Part shown: one piece after another, positions 40,066 to 44,887 of the stretch
How the letters are laid out: the number at the start of each line of letters is the position of its first letter
How positions within the stretch are numbered: position 1 is the stretch's first letter
From: Glutamicibacter soli
GTDB taxonomy: Bacteria > Actinomycetota > Actinomycetes > Actinomycetales > Micrococcaceae
DNA: 64,000 bases
NCBI RefSeq assembly: GCF_003309065.1
Contig: NZ_POAF01000002.1
Span: forward strand, 124,001 to 188,000
Direction: 5' to 3'
Program-made: the position numbers and the translations under genes
Notes under the pieces: model-generated
Database searches by the model: none
What the model saw: only the letters and a program-made list of their open reading frames with translations
What the model was told of the DNA's origin: nothing

Positions 40066-40191
40066 ATGCTAGCCCTCAGCCTCTACGTCCTCATCTGGCC
40101 GGTCATCGTGGCCGTCGTCGCCATCGTCATCTCCAAGGCCTTCATTTCCGAAGCCCGCGAGGCGAAGCGCCGTGGCGAGGACCTGATCTAG
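40066..40191 (+). CDS. 41-residue single-helix protein, probable symporter accessory subunit
   Basis: ATG 40066 follows the symporter's TAA with no gap and gives MLALSLYVLIWPVIVAVVAI, the remainder of one membrane helix, then a charged end (SEAREAKRRGEDLI), 41 residues in all. caggagcg lies 8 nt ahead. One helix plus a basic/acidic cytoplasmic tail is the pattern of the small partners found directly behind SSS and NSS transporters in actinobacteria (for example MetS behind MetP in Corynebacterium). Its role would be assembly or activity of the symporter; that is by analogy. Such genes are often missed in annotation because of size. Confidence 0.8.
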   Translation: MLALSLYVLIWPVIVAVVAIVISKAFISEAREAKRRGEDLI

Positions 40192-40213
40192 GCGCCCCGC
40201 CCACTAGCCGTAC

Positions 40214-40262
40214 AGCGCGCGTGCCGGTTCTCCCCTGCATCGGGGGAGGGCCGGCGCGCGTG
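40214..40262 (+). terminator. hairpin after the symporter operon
   Basis: Nested pairing: gcgcgc with gcgcgc outside, gccgg with ccggc in the middle, and tcccc with gggga at the tip; a few bulges. No clear T run follows directly. Confidence 0.5.
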
Positions 40263-40298
40263 CTTGGTGCGGAGGTTGCAAAATTTTTTCGATCCGGT

Positions 40299-40326
40299 CC
40301 AATCCGCACCGTGCCGCGCCCCGAAT
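40299..40326 (+). promoter_or_regulatory. candidate SigK-type promoter of the fasciclin gene
   Basis: ccaatcc (40299-40305), 15 nt, ccgaat (40321-40326), 73 nt before the fasciclin ATG. The mycobacterial SigK consensus as I recall it is CCATCC, 16-17 nt, CCGAAT. The same pair with the same spacing lies before the molybdopterin oxidoreductase gene. Confidence 0.6.
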
Positions 40327-40399
40327 ACCGTGTGAAAGCCCGCCCCGACGGGGAGGGACACCACGACGGTTCTTGCCGTCGCCACAGGAGGAGAACGAC

Positions 40400-41083
40400 A
40401 TGAAGCACACGCAGAGAACGTTCGCCGGAGCCCTGGGATTGATCGCGGTCGCCGCGCTGGGACTCAGTGCCTGTTCGATGGACAGCGACACCCCGGAATC
40501 ATCGAGCGCACCCGCCCCCGAAGCCTCCAGCTCGGAGATGGCCACCGAAAGCAGCCCGGCCGCGGACAGCAGCATGGACCCGACCGCGAATCTTGTCGGC
40601 TCGGGATGCTCGGCCTACGCCGAAGCCGTGCCGAGCGGCGACGGCTCGGTCGCCGGGATGGCCCAGGACCCGGTCGCCGTCGCGGCGTCCAACAACCCGC
40701 TGCTGAAGACCTTGACCAAGGCCGTCTCCGGGAAGCTGAACCCGGACGTCGATCTGGTCGACACCTTGAACGGGGCCGAATTCACCGTCTTCGCACCGGT
40801 AGACGAAGCCTTCGCCGCCATCCCGGAGAAGGACCTGAACGCCGTCGTCAAGGATTCGGACATGCTGACCAAGGTGCTCACCTACCATGTGGTTCCCGGG
40901 GAGATCCAGCCCGCCGACATCGCGGGAACGCACACCACGGTTGAGGGCCGGGACCTGGAAGTGACAGGCAGCGCAGACAACCTGATGGTCAATGACGCCA
41001 AGGTCGTCTGCGGCGGAGTCCAGACCGCCAATGCGGTGGTCTACCTGGTCGACACCGTCCTGATGCCGCCGGCCGACAAGTAG
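40400..41083 (+). CDS. fasciclin (FAS1) domain lipoprotein
   Basis: A 227-residue lipoprotein. The signal ends in LSAC; then comes a Ser/Ala/Pro/Glu linker ([19 protein letters not shown]) and one FAS1 domain from about residue 95: [10 protein letters not shown]...[26 protein letters not shown] (H1 block) and [14 protein letters not shown] (the H2/YH block), ending [12 protein letters not shown]. This matches the mycobacterial MPT83/MPT70 layout, an exported surface adhesin-like domain. Those genes are the classic SigK targets, and here sigK-rskA follows directly. ATG 40400 has aggaggag 7 nt upstream. Two cysteines (SGC and VVC) may form a disulfide. Confidence 0.9.
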
Positions 41084-41259
41084 CCGCGGCGCCTGGATTC
41101 TGTCCGACGTAAACCAGCCATGGCGGCGTCCGGTTCCGGCACAGGAGCCGGGCGTCGCCGTGCGCCGCGCGCCCCGGAACCCGCGGGGAACGCCCCTGAA
41201 ACTGAATGGTGGATGAGAGCCATGGGAATGATCGCCTCGTGCATGAGATTCTTGGGTCC

Positions 41260-41841
41260 ATGAGTTCGGAGATGAGCGACGCAGTTCCAGAGCCGGTGAC
41301 GGCAGCACCCGAGGAACTGCTGCGCCGTATCGCCGGCGGCGACGAGCGCGCCTTCGAGCAGTTTTACGACTGCCTCGCGCCGCGCGTGTACGGCCTGGTG
41401 CGGCGCCTGCTGAGGGACGAGGCGCAAAGCGAGGAGATCCTGCAGGAAGTCTTCGTTCAGGCCTGGCAGCATGCGGCCCGCTTCGACCCTGCCCGCGGCA
41501 GCGCCGCGGGCTGGTTGCTGACCCTGGCGCACCGCCGCACGGTGGACCGCATCCGCTCCAGCCAGGCAAGCCGCGAACGAGACCTGCGCATGGGGCTACA
41601 GGAGATCGGCACGGAATACAACGACGTGGAAGAGAACGCGATCCTGCATGACGAGAGCCGGCGCATCGTGCAGGCGCTCAAGCGCCTGAGCGAGGCCCAG
41701 CGCGCCGCCATCGAACTGGCCTACTTCGGGGGCTACACGCACCACGAGGTGGCCGACCTGCTGAAAATCCCGGTGGGCACCGCCAAGACGCGCATCCGCG
41801 ATGGCATGATTAAGCTTCGAGACCTGATGGGGGTGGCGTAG
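41260..41841 (+). CDS. sigK: ECF sigma factor SigK
   Basis: A 193-residue extracytoplasmic-function sigma factor. Region 2 covers LLRRIAGGDERAFEQFYD through VYGLVRRLLRDEAQSEEILQ, EVFVQAWQHAARFDP, GSAAGWLLTLAHRRTVDRIR; region 4 covers LKRLSEAQRAAIELAYFGGY, THHEVADLLKIPVGTAKTRI. The sequence tracks mycobacterial SigK closely. ATG 41260 gives an N-terminus about the right length; 41206 and 41272 are alternatives. The stop codon shares its last base with the GTG of the anti-sigma gene, so the pair is made in step. Likely targets are the flanking fasciclin and oxidoreductase genes. Confidence 0.9.
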   Translation: MSSEMSDAVPEPVTAAPEELLRRIAGGDERAFEQFYDCLAPRVYGLVRRLLRDEAQSEEILQEVFVQAWQHAARFDPARGSAAGWLLTLAHRRTVDRIRSSQASRERDLRMGLQEIGTEYNDVEENAILHDESRRIVQALKRLSEAQRAAIELAYFGGYTHHEVADLLKIPVGTAKTRIRDGMIKLRDLMGVA

Positions 41842-42656
41842 TGGAACGGAACGAGAACGAGCTGACCGGCAGCTACGCCCTGAATGCGCTGAGCGACGAG
41901 GAACGCGCCAGGCTGCTGGCGCAGGCCGCGAACTCCCCCGCGCTTCAAGCCGACATGGATGCCATGGACGAGACCGCCGCCATGCTGGCGCTGGGCAGCG
42001 CACCGGTGCCCCCGCCGACCAGGGTGAAATCCCGGCTCATGGAGGAGATCGCCCGCCGCCCGCAGCTGCCGGCGGAGGATCCCACGGACGAACGAGCGGA
42101 CGAGCCGGCGGCAATTCCGCAGCCCGAGCACGCGCCAGCCCCGGATTCCGTGCCCGCGCGGCAGGGATGGCCTGCCCGCCGCAAGTCCGCGAAGTTCTTC
42201 GCCCTGGCCGCGGCCATCCTGCTGCTGGGCTCGGCGGGGCTGGGAACCGTGGTCTACCTGCAGCAGGCCGAACAGCGCCAGCTGCAGGCCCAGCTCACCG
42301 ATCTCAGCACTCGCCAGGCCGAGCTCACCGAGCTGCTGGGCGCGCCGGATGTGGAAACCAAAACCCAGACCATGGCCGACGGGGCGACGGTGACGCTGTC
42401 CTATTCCGTCGAGCGGGGCCTGATGGCAGTCACCACCGCCGGAATGCCCGAGCTGTCCAAGGACAAGGGCTACGAGCTGTGGCTCATCTCCGCCGACGGC
42501 GCCCAGCCGGCCGGCATGCTGCCGGGCACCGGGGCCGACGGCCTGAAATTGCTTACCGGTGCCATGGACGGGGTCTCGCATTTCGGCATCACCGTTGAAC
42601 CGGCCACGGGTTCTCCGGCGCCGACCACCGAACCGCTGATGGTCCAGGAACTCTGA
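41841..42656 (+). CDS. rskA: RskA-type anti-sigma factor
   Basis: A 271-residue single-pass membrane protein. The N-terminal cytoplasmic part is the sigma-binding domain (ELTGSYALNALSDEERARLL, RVKSRLMEEIARRP), without the HxxxCxxC zinc motif, as in RskA. It is followed by a Pro/Glu linker, a membrane helix at about 118-138 (FFALAAAILLLGSAGLGTVV) and an extracytoplasmic RskA domain (YSVERGLMAVTTAGMPELS, GYELWLISADGAQPAGML). It should hold SigK at the membrane until regulated proteolysis frees it. GTG 41841 overlaps the sigK stop by 1 nt. Confidence 0.92.
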   Translation: MERNENELTGSYALNALSDEERARLLAQAANSPALQADMDAMDETAAMLALGSAPVPPPTRVKSRLMEEIARRPQLPAEDPTDERADEPAAIPQPEHAPAPDSVPARQGWPARRKSAKFFALAAAILLLGSAGLGTVVYLQQAEQRQLQAQLTDLSTRQAELTELLGAPDVETKTQTMADGATVTLSYSVERGLMAVTTAGMPELSKDKGYELWLISADGAQPAGMLPGTGADGLKLLTGAMDGVSHFGITVEPATGSPAPTTEPLMVQEL

Positions 42657-42667
42657 GCATGCCCGGG

Positions 42668-42695
42668 CCAATCCGCCCCCGGCCCGGCTCCGAAC
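42668..42695 (+). promoter_or_regulatory. candidate SigK-type promoter of the molybdopterin oxidoreductase gene
   Basis: ccaatcc (42668-42674), 15 nt, ccgaac (42690-42695), 65 nt before the GTG start. It is the second copy of the arrangement seen before the fasciclin gene. Confidence 0.6.
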
Positions 42696-42760
42696 CAGTT
42701 GCTGAAGGACCAGCCGACCCGGAACGCCGGGCGGCAGCTACTCACCGGAGGTGACATGCC

Positions 42761-44314
42761 GTGAAGGAAACACCAAGGCGCAACCTGGGAGCACGCGGAG
42801 CGTATGCGCTGACGGGGCTCTGCTCGGCCGGGGTGCTGTTCGGCGTCGCCCAGCTGGTGTCAGCCTTTTTCGCTTCGTCGTCAGCACCTTTGGTGGCGCT
42901 GGGCTCCGCTGTCATCGACTTCACCCCGCCGGGGCTGAAGGACCTGGCGATTTCGCTGTTCGGCACCAACGACAAGCTGGCCCTGTTCGTCTCGATGGGC
43001 GCGGTGGCCGTGGTGCTCGCCGCGCTGATCGGCCTGCTGGCGCGGCGCAGCGCCGCCGCGGCCTCGGCAACGGTGCTGGTGCTGGCGGGGATCCTGGGCG
43101 CCGCGGTGATCTCGCGTTCATCCACCGGTCCGCTGGATCTGGTCCCGACCGCCCTGGGCACCGCGGCGGCGCTGCTTGTCCTGCGGTGGCTGTGCTCGTT
43201 GGCTTCCCGGCTGGATCCCGCGCACTCGGAGTCGCCCGATGGCGTGGCCCGGCGCAACTTCATGCTCGGGGCCGCCGGGGCCGTGGTGCTCGCGGCGGGC
43301 GCCGCCATCCTGTCCACGCCGCTGTTCGCGGCCCGGAACACCGCGCAGCTGGCTCGCAAGGCCCTGCGGCTTCCGGCCGCCAAGACCACGGCTCCCGCGG
43401 TGCCGCCGGGCGCCCAGATCAATCTGGCGGGGATGCCCGAGTTCGTCACCCCGAACCAGGATTTCTACCGCATCGACACCGCGTTGAGGGTGCCCGGCAT
43501 CGACCCGGCGCAGTGGTCGCTGCGGGTCCATGGCCTGGTGGAGCACGAGTTCACGATGAATTTCCAGGAGCTGCTCAGCCAGGACCTGGTGGAGCACTAC
43601 CTGACGCTGACCTGCGTTTCGAACCCGGTGGGCGGGGATCTGGTGGGCAACGCAAAGTGGCTGGGCTATCCGCTGCGCGAGGTGCTGGCCCGCGCCAAGC
43701 CGGCCGCGGGCGCGGACATGGTGCTGTCCACCTCGATCGACGGATTCAGCGCGTCCACCCCGCTCGAAGCCCTGACCGATGAACGCATGGCGCTGCTGGC
43801 CGTGGGCATGAACGGCGAGGCGCTGCCCATGGAGCACGGCTTCCCGGTGCGCATGGTGGTTCCCGGGCTCTACGGGTACGTCTCGGCCACCAAATGGGTG
43901 GTGGACCTTGAGGTGACCCGCTTCGCGGACAAGGCGGCCTACTGGACCACCCGCGGCTGGTCCGAACGCGGCCCGATAAAGATGTCATCCCGCGTGGACA
44001 CCCCGCAGTCCTTCGCCACGGTGCCCGCCGGACGGGTGGATCTCGGCGGCAGCGCCTGGGCGCAGACCCGCGGCATTTCCCGGGTCCAGGTCAGCATCGA
44101 CGGCGGTTCCTGGCGCGAGGCAACGCTGGCCGAGGAGGCGACGCTCGATACCTGGCGGCAATGGAGCTACCGCTGGGAGGACGCGGCGCCCGGCACGCAT
44201 GCGGTCGCCGTGCGGGCCTACGACCGCAGCGGCAAGCTGCAGACCGAAGAGCGCGCCGACCCGGTGCCCGACGGAGCGTCAGGCTGGCACCGGGTGCAGT
44301 TCACGGTGGAATGA
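42761..44314 (+). CDS. membrane-anchored molybdopterin-dependent oxidoreductase (sulfite oxidase family)
   Basis: A 517-residue protein. The first 185 residues hold four to five membrane helices; the last of these is preceded by [12 protein letters not shown], a twin-arginine-like motif at the edge of the extracytoplasmic part. From about 215 comes the sulfite oxidase-type molybdopterin domain ([28 protein letters not shown]), with the molybdenum-ligating Cys in [14 protein letters not shown]-terminal Ig-like dimer domain contains [16 protein letters not shown] and WRQWSYRWE. The helices before a Moco domain resemble YedY/MsrP-like exported enzymes; the substrate is unknown. GTG 42761 follows ggaggtgac. 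It probably belongs to the SigK set. Confidence 0.9.
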
Positions 44315-44353
44315 GCCGCGTCGCCGCGGGCGGCGCAAGGTATCGGGAAAAAC

Positions 44354-44403
44354 GAAATCCCCGGCGCCTGCACGATATGCATCGTGCAGGCGCCGGGGAT
44401 TTC
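44354..44403. terminator. very strong bidirectional terminator between the oxidoreductase gene and rbfA
   Basis: A perfect 23-bp stem (44354-44376 with 44381-44403) with the loop atgc; A/T ends serve both strands. It separates convergent genes at the rbfA border of the inserted block. Confidence 0.92.
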
Positions 44404-44446
44404 CCGGCTTTGGGCCCCGGATCCGGGCCAGGCAGCGCAGGTGCGC

Positions 44447-44887
44447 CTAGGCCTGTTCGGCGTCCTGGTCCTCGTCCTTCTTGTACGGGTCCTCGTCGCC
44501 GGCGAAGTGCTTGCCTTCGCGCAGGGCCGCGACCTCGGCGTCCTTCTCGCGGGCCTTGGCCAGCAGTTCCTCAAGGTGCGAAGCGCCCTCGGGGATCTCG
44601 TCGGCCACGAAGGTCAGCGTCGGGGTCAGCCGGATGGTCAGGTTGCGGCCCAGCTCCTTGCGCAGGGCTCCCCCGCGCTTGGACAGCAGCTCGGCGATTT
44701 CTGCCTTGGCAGTGTCGTCGCCGAACACCGTGTAGTACACGGTGGCGTGCTGCAGGTCGTTGGTGACGCGGGCGTCGGTCACCGTCACGTTGTCGATGCG
44801 CTCGTCCTTGATGACGGTGCGCAGGGACTGGGCCATGAGGACCTGCACGCGCTTGGCAAGGCGTGCGGCACGGGCTGAATCAGCCAT
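44447..44887 (-). CDS. rbfA: 30S ribosome-binding factor A
   Basis: A 146-residue protein with a KH-like fold: ARLAKRVQVLMAQSLRTVI at the start, then LQHATVYYTVFGD and LRKELGRNLTIRLTPTLTFV, the standard RbfA blocks. It helps late maturation of the 30S subunit and is used in cold adaptation. The C-terminal 25 residues are acidic (DEDPYKKDEDQDAEQA). ATG 44887 has aaggag 6 nt before it; an earlier in-frame ATG is not supported. It lies 100 nt after infB, same strand. Confidence 0.95.
   Translation of the reverse strand: MADSARAARLAKRVQVLMAQSLRTVIKDERIDNVTVTDARVTNDLQHATVYYTVFGDDTAKAEIAELLSKRGGALRKELGRNLTIRLTPTLTFVADEIPEGASHLEELLAKAREKDAEVAALREGKHFAGDEDPYKKDEDQDAEQA

Follow-up and report, generated by a model that had tools for sequence, protein, structure and literature searches.

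Does the sigK-rskA pair of Glutamicibacter soli sit at the centre of a small regulon of its own and, if so, which genes belong to it? We considered this question for a stretch of 64,000 nucleotides (nt) from RefSeq assembly GCF_003309065.1 (contig NZ_POAF01000002.1, positions 124,001 to 188,000 of the forward strand), hereafter called the window, with position 1 as its first letter. In this window, genes for a fasciclin lipoprotein, the sigma factor SigK, the anti-sigma factor RskA and an oxidoreductase of the molybdenum cofactor (Moco) type follow each other on the plus strand. An original prediction, made from the sequence alone, had proposed that two SigK-type promoter elements flank sigK-rskA and define a local regulon. 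The analysis presented below makes it very probable, on sequence grounds, that the locus is a self-contained SigK-RskA regulon in which both elements are SigK promoters, one serving the fasciclin lipoprotein gene and the other the Moco enzyme gene.

The motif CCAATCC-N15-CCGAA(T/C) was present at both predicted positions, on the plus strand and with an exact 15-nt spacer. Candidate promoter 1 (CCAATCC-N15-CCGAAT; 40299..40326) begins 101 nt ahead of the fasciclin coding sequence, and candidate promoter 2 (CCAATCC-N15-CCGAAC; 42668..42695) starts 12 nt past the rskA stop codon and 93 nt upstream of the Moco start. A search for CCAATCC-N13..18-CCGAAY gave two matches in the 64 kb, against a mean of 0.03 in 100 shuffles, none of which contained two. 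The elements had been called identical, which needs correction: they have boxes and spacing in common, and differ in the final base (T versus C) and in spacer sequence. They had also been described as carrying an extra A in the -35 box and an altered spacing relative to a mycobacterial consensus (CCATCC, 16-17 nt, CCGAAT), for which no paper passage printing it was found. When aligned in register with the mycobacteria-like loci L098 and L100 (CCCATCC-N15-CCGAAT), the window elements differ by a single substitution, C to A at -35 position 3, at the same 15-nt spacing, so that there is no extra A. Mycobacteria-like loci (L098-L107) were assigned by SigK identity only; among these ten, L101, L103 and L106 gave no match to the site pattern used, and more than 3.5 kb separates the site from sigK in L105 and L107.

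A first objection is that the two elements resemble a promoter by chance or through base composition. In terms of number, the 3.84-Mb assembly gives this objection some ground, with six exact matches to CCAATCC-N14..17-CCGAA (three with N14, three with N15, none with N16 or N17) and another three for spacings N18-19 together. About one match per spacing is therefore background, and the N15 count equals that of N14 and that of N18-19. The genome-wide scan that had been suggested as a check thus gave a divided answer: the count did not rise above background, and the exact N15 copies all stand upstream of cassette genes, two being the window sites and the third lying upstream of the Moco gene of a second cassette on contig C2. 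The fasciclin promoter of that second cassette has one mismatch (TCGAAT). By a rough estimate, chance matches in the four stretches of ~150 nt upstream of the cassette fasciclin and Moco genes would be expected at 1e-4. The evidence is the placement of the sites at two cassettes, not their genome-wide frequency. A genome-wide trans regulon was considered for this genome and rejected: a one-mismatch scan gave 24 matches versus 11 for the reversed control, with four of the 24 at the cassettes and the other 20 not inspected singly.

The second cassette (L037, G000:C2:28000-39000) is complete, with the same order fasciclin-sigK-rskA-Moco and both promoters present. The two SigK proteins of this genome are only 51-52% identical, and both cassettes use the same -35 box and spacing. 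There are two fasciclin genes in the genome (Pfam, E <= 0.001), one per cassette and each with a site. The cassette region of C2 matched plasmid NZ_CP013298.1 of Arthrobacter sp. YC-RL1 with 94.4% identity over 92% of the 11-kb query, a match that makes it probable that contig C2 (64.6 kb) belongs to a related plasmid. On NZ_CP013298.1 itself (112,763 bp, MOBP, predicted mobilizable), both sites and the order of the four genes are retained. Close to the second cassette lie genes for a ferrochelatase, an AAA-family ATPase and a transglycosylase.

Conservation was assessed in 201 SigK loci. The family set (61 loci, Micrococcaceae) consisted of the best 62 SigK matches, window and second cassette included, minus L093. 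The class set (60 loci) comprised L093 and L098-L156, hand-picked to spread over families, of which L093 and L156 belong to the family of the window; the named set held 80 loci among the matches listed, eight of them repeating loci of the other sets. A site was defined as CCMATCC-N14..16-CCGAA with at most one mismatch, between -400 and +40 of an extrapolated gene start, which makes some positions approximate, and the same pattern read backwards served as control. For family loci with at least 50% SigK identity (n=50), we observed a site upstream of 41 of the 46 fasciclin genes and 26 of the 38 Moco genes, while the reversed pattern gave none for either. Below 50% identity (n=11), the one fasciclin gene and the one Moco gene both had a site. 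This trend extended to the class loci (fasciclin 13/20, Moco 15/19) and the named loci (fasciclin 22/24, Moco 14/22; 14/16 and 11/14 after removal of the repeats), again with no reversed match. The prediction that SigK-type promoters precede both neighbours of sigK-rskA is supported by these conserved sites, as is its claim of a conserved SigK-RskA-fasciclin link.

Chance resemblance also fits poorly with the spacing preference. In the 49 family genomes with at least 50% SigK identity, N15-16 matches outnumbered N18-19 matches by 159 to 61, compared with 108 to 86 in the other 100 genomes (Fisher p 4.7e-4). Sites also recur upstream of the corresponding genes in two diverged cassettes and in many genera, and the reversed controls are empty. 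All this leaves the chance explanation hardly credible; it is rejected on conservation, not on number.

Several points nevertheless weigh against the regulon as we propose it. Motif copies in the genome are no more numerous than for other spacings, one mismatch was allowed in the site calls, and a hairpin between the fasciclin gene and sigK, discussed below, may block rather than attenuate read-through. Moreover, a site was missing within the set limits from 7 of the 20 class fasciclin and 4 of the 19 class Moco genes, and from 2 of the 24 named fasciclin (L219, L253) and 8 of the 22 named Moco genes. Five of these eight are repeats, either of loci with a gene for a DUF4383 membrane protein (L184, L187, L188, L215) or of the class miss L150 (L248). 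The same DUF4383 genes appear in the family misses. All five family loci without a fasciclin site (L068, L072, L078, L079, L081) carry one further up, in front of a DUF4383 gene, and in these five the site heads a DUF4383-fasciclin-sigK-rskA-Moco string, which covers five of the 12 family Moco misses. In another five (L051, L054, L055, L057, L074), a DUF4383 gene with its own site stands between rskA and the Moco gene; the remaining two, L059 and L060, are left without explanation.

Among the 201 loci, 30 contained a DUF4383-like gene, which in 26 cases had its own site within 300 nt (family 21/23, class 0/0, named 5/7; reversed control 0). Five of these seven named loci duplicate family loci, and counting each locus once gives 22 of 25. 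Such a site recurs beside sigK in L051, L054, L055, L057-L060, L068-L079, L081 and L082, and away from sigK in L158; Pfam confirmed DUF4383 in all three proteins tested. To judge from these sites, the DUF4383 membrane protein is a third recurrent putative target in relatives. No DUF4383 gene was detected in the window genome, in a search run without a positive control.

Sites, their positions, their conservation and their movement with genes can be read directly from the sequences, the movement being seen in rearranged loci. The Glutamicibacter-type order is fasciclin-sigK-rskA-Moco. In the Nocardioides-type order, Moco-fasciclin-sigK-rskA, sites precede the Moco and fasciclin genes (e.g. L236, L258, L259), and in the Actinoplanes-type loci L242 and L254 (sigK-rskA-fasciclin-Moco) they precede sigK and fasciclin, with the Moco gene lacking a site of its own. 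Because the sites move with the transcription units, which would be hard to explain otherwise, they are likely to be functional. These loci also bear on the suggestion that a Micrococcaceae-type genome had added the Moco enzyme to the regulon. Its membership is supported by the conserved sites, but it is no local addition, since Moco genes linked to sigK and preceded by a site were also seen in Nocardioides and Nocardiopsis, and in class loci of other families.

We then have to consider which sigma factor reads the sites. They may be real promoters that a different sigma factor reads, or that the chromosomal SigK shares with the SigK of the plasmid-like cassette, and the identical -35 box and spacing at two cassettes with such divergent SigK proteins would fit shared regulation. 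The sites are, however, tightly linked to sigK loci and often lie upstream of sigK itself where no co-directional fasciclin gene is present, which argues against an unrelated factor, and shared use of the sites would be compatible with SigK. We therefore consider this alternative unlikely and retain SigK as the probable factor acting on both elements. The -35 letter was also compared with SigK residues: at position 3, 137 readable loci had A in 111 and C in 26 (four loci with both were given one). At SigK residue 177 of the window numbering, in the sigma-4 region, T accompanied A in 110 of 111 loci, and S accompanied C in 10 of 26. That T177/S177 separates the CCAATCC and CCCATCC groups is suggestive, and it is confounded by phylogeny. 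A second kind of SigK-like locus was seen in same-family genomes (L089, L090, L092, L093, L095, L096, L156), with CCCATCC sites and no local fasciclin gene found; three of these (L090, L093, L156) have the mycobacterial-type cysteines.

How sigK itself is expressed is the next question. The original prediction saw no copy of the motif before sigK and suggested that the gene may not be autoregulated from its own promoter. Indeed, there is no site within 400 nt upstream of the window sigK, but a lack of autoregulation does not follow, because a co-directional gene carrying a SigK-type site ends 176 nt ahead of sigK, which may still be autoregulated through that site. Where a fasciclin gene is absent or not co-directional, a site was found within 400 nt upstream of sigK in 68 of 110 loci, with none for the reversed pattern (family 2/4 at >=50% and 8/10 at <50% identity, class 25/40, named 33/56, and also 33/56 minus repeats). 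Passages of PMC7509140 describe autoregulation of sigK in M. tuberculosis from the promoter of the upstream gene Rv0449c, and also mention a putative SigK-independent promoter just upstream of that sigK.

The 176-nt gap contains a strong GC hairpin without a U-rich tail (41119..41162, plus strand; 44 nt, -37.2 kcal/mol, z -5.8 versus whole-gap shuffles), a candidate attenuator or terminator. In 46 family loci, hairpins in the fasciclin-sigK gap had a median of -32.5 kcal/mol, with z <= -3 in 35, and beat all 12 shuffles in 39; for 24 rskA-Moco gaps the median was -19.3 kcal/mol, with z <= -3 in seven, and all 12 shuffles were beaten in nine. This whole-gap test replaced an earlier one on 22 chosen loci, in which only the chosen window was shuffled (z <= -4 in 18/22). 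Genus g24 (L061-L067) has no such hairpin in the first gap, and in five of its seven loci (L061, L062, L063, L066, L067) the second gap contains one, as though the unit now ended at another point. We read the hairpin as an attenuator that would hold SigK low relative to fasciclin, though it may be a full terminator. In the latter case, sigK-rskA could be transcribed only from a constitutive promoter within the 176-nt gap, without autoregulation. The strength of the family hairpins and the putative SigK-independent promoter of M. tuberculosis fit such an arrangement, while the M. tuberculosis autoregulation through Rv0449c speaks against it, as does the scan of 40180-44500, where no sigma-70-like promoter was found (the scan was not tuned to high-GC promoters). 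We regard it as a serious possibility, albeit the less probable one, and keep limited read-through in the model below.

In the proposed mechanism, membrane-bound RskA would hold SigK inactive until an extracytoplasmic signal frees it, after which RNA polymerase with SigK would start at both elements. Promoter 1 would then yield a surface fasciclin lipoprotein resembling MPT83 and, where transcription continues to a limited extent beyond the hairpin, more sigK-rskA; promoter 2 would yield a membrane-anchored Moco enzyme of the sulfite-oxidase family. We infer SigK binding, activation and read-through, and suppose that both products help to keep surface proteins intact, or to repair them, during oxidative stress. 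Reporter assays in mycobacteria and Yersinia have established that fasciclin promoters there depend on SigK, as passages of PMC7509140 state.

As for the signal, M. tuberculosis SigK requires a Cys133/Cys183 pair to be fully activated by RskA, and this pair occurs in 94% of the members of ECF18 and 56% of those of ECF19 (passages of PMC7509140). The corresponding columns of the window SigK hold A and L, and none of the 64 members of its clade has both cysteines (midpoint-rooted tree of 202 SigK including repeats, support 0.985). The window SigK is accordingly not classed with the redox-sensitive M. tuberculosis type; in view of the ECF18 and ECF19 frequencies the absence is not unusual, and it gives no ground for presuming a cysteine switch. 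RskA is probably where the signal enters. PMC9861118 calls the SigK-RskA stimuli obscure and reports light induction of the MPT83/MPT70 homologues of M. kansasii; ECF19 is covered in PMC7406223 and PMC8965627, the latter noting less RskA protein after ultraviolet exposure in a soil actinobacterium. The sigma network of M. tuberculosis is treated in PMC4821874.

A wider and, in our estimate, quite improbable idea is that the ancestral SigK regulon of Actinomycetes was an extracytoplasmic photo-oxidative or redox-repair module (fasciclin, Moco reductase and, in relatives, DUF4383) with one promoter type, and that a plasmid-type copy can cross-activate the chromosomal one. It draws loosely on the M. 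kansasii light induction, on a photolyase gene at L176 and on carotenoid-binding fasciclins in the PDB. At L176 (G075, same genus) the photolyase gene lies between rskA and a site-bearing Moco gene, and no SigK match was obtained there at 1e-30.

This locus is one of 20 trans-site regions in relatives, picked among the matches listed, mostly because they are common to related genomes. Genes downstream of such sites encode fasciclin lipoproteins (L173, L174), DUF4383 (L158), a CopD protein (L161) and the Moco enzyme (L176); sites inside a predicted open reading frame or upstream of an unidentified frame (e.g. L164-L168, L172, L175, L177) were not counted as promoters. CHRD-like secreted proteins were seen downstream of CCAATCC-N15/16-CCGAA away from sigK in two genera (L163, L170, L171). 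Pfam CHRD gave 0.0049 for one of two such proteins, under its cut-off, and no match for the other, and the window genome gave no CHRD gene. On a Mycobacteroides abscessus plasmid (NC_021278.1, L261), a related Moco gene near another sigma factor, a Rieske protein and a cupredoxin suggests a parallel Moco-sigma factor association.

The gene identities given in the original prediction hold. The fasciclin lipoprotein gene (40400..41083, plus strand) encodes an MPT83/MPT70-type protein of 227 residues with a lipobox-like LSAC (Pfam Fasciclin 1.1e-28) and M. tuberculosis MPT70 as best PDB match (1nyo, E 1e-55). The extracytoplasmic function (ECF) sigma factor gene sigK (41260..41841, plus strand) gives 193 residues from this start, with an alternative in-frame ATG at 41206; the protein scores 255.1 bits in NF007228 (cut-off 226), and its best PDB match is M. 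tuberculosis SigK (4nqw, E 7.7e-50). The GTG start of rskA (41841..42656, plus strand) shares the last base of the sigK stop codon; its 271-residue product is a membrane anti-sigma factor (Pfam RskA_C 1.2e-24, NF052375 144 bits) whose N-terminal part weakly matches 4nqw chain B (E 0.0053). The Moco gene (42761..44314, plus strand) encodes a sulfite-oxidase-family oxidoreductase of 517 residues with N-terminal hydrophobic segments (Pfam Oxidored_molyb 8.7e-43, 146.3 bits versus a cut-off of 24), nearest by sequence to SorA/sulfite oxidase (PDB SorA, E 1.6e-18). The twin arginine R164-R165 and Cys285 were invariant in 18 of 18 aligned Moco proteins. Because the twin arginine precedes a hydrophobic stretch, the catalytic domain is probably exposed outside the membrane via a segment resembling a twin-arginine translocation signal. 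Downstream of the Moco gene is a palindromic hairpin with a 20-bp stem (44355..44402), terminator-like by score on the minus strand only.

The regulon type is thus known, namely mpt83-sigK-rskA with a site, and its Moco arm, DUF4383 arm and plasmid-borne copy are new within the open-access searches made. We call the two arms new because these searches gave no description of them. A Moco gene in a SigK regulon was not described in the title or abstract start of the open-access matches listed, no open-access full text combined fasciclin, molybdopterin and 'sigma factor', and no SigK-Moco link appeared in the available parts of PMC1949818, PMC1796856, PMC6323826, PMC5885015 ('molybdopterin' once, in a reference title) or PMC12226641 (no 'RskA' at word start in the main text). 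DUF4383 was met in a single open-access paper, which concerns the M. avium DosR regulon (PMC11876180). SigK-RskA is best known from major antigens of tubercle bacilli, and the many environmental actinomycetes with this locus offer a tractable, non-pathogenic system. The same promoter type upstream of Moco genes, and of DUF4383 genes in relatives, gives a functional hint at surface redox chemistry, and a whole sigma/anti-sigma regulon with its promoters is carried on a plasmid predicted to be mobilizable.

Compared with known systems, the Moco enzyme resembles SorA, SoxC, SorT and MsrP in its Moco domain and conserved cysteine; it differs in its N-terminal hydrophobic domain and twin-arginine segment, and falls far below the four curated cut-offs (112 of 600 bits for SorA, 96 of 420 for SoxC, 72 of 570 for SorT, 60 of 207 for MsrP). 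The minimal mpt83-sigK-rskA cassette of Yersinia enterocolitica shares the gene trio and a SigK site upstream of fasciclin (Veyrier 2008, as cited in passages of PMC7509140); the word molybdopterin is absent from PMC7509140. The mycobacterial SigK-RskA/MPT83-MPT70 regulon, which has autoregulation through an upstream gene's promoter as its own feature, shares with the window a SigK-subfamily factor, RskA, an MPT70-like fasciclin and, to judge by the mycobacteria-like loci, the promoter spacing and the -10 box. The window locus differs from it in having CCAATCC rather than CCCATCC as its -35 box, in lacking equivalents of Cys133/Cys183, and in including a Moco gene with a site of its own.

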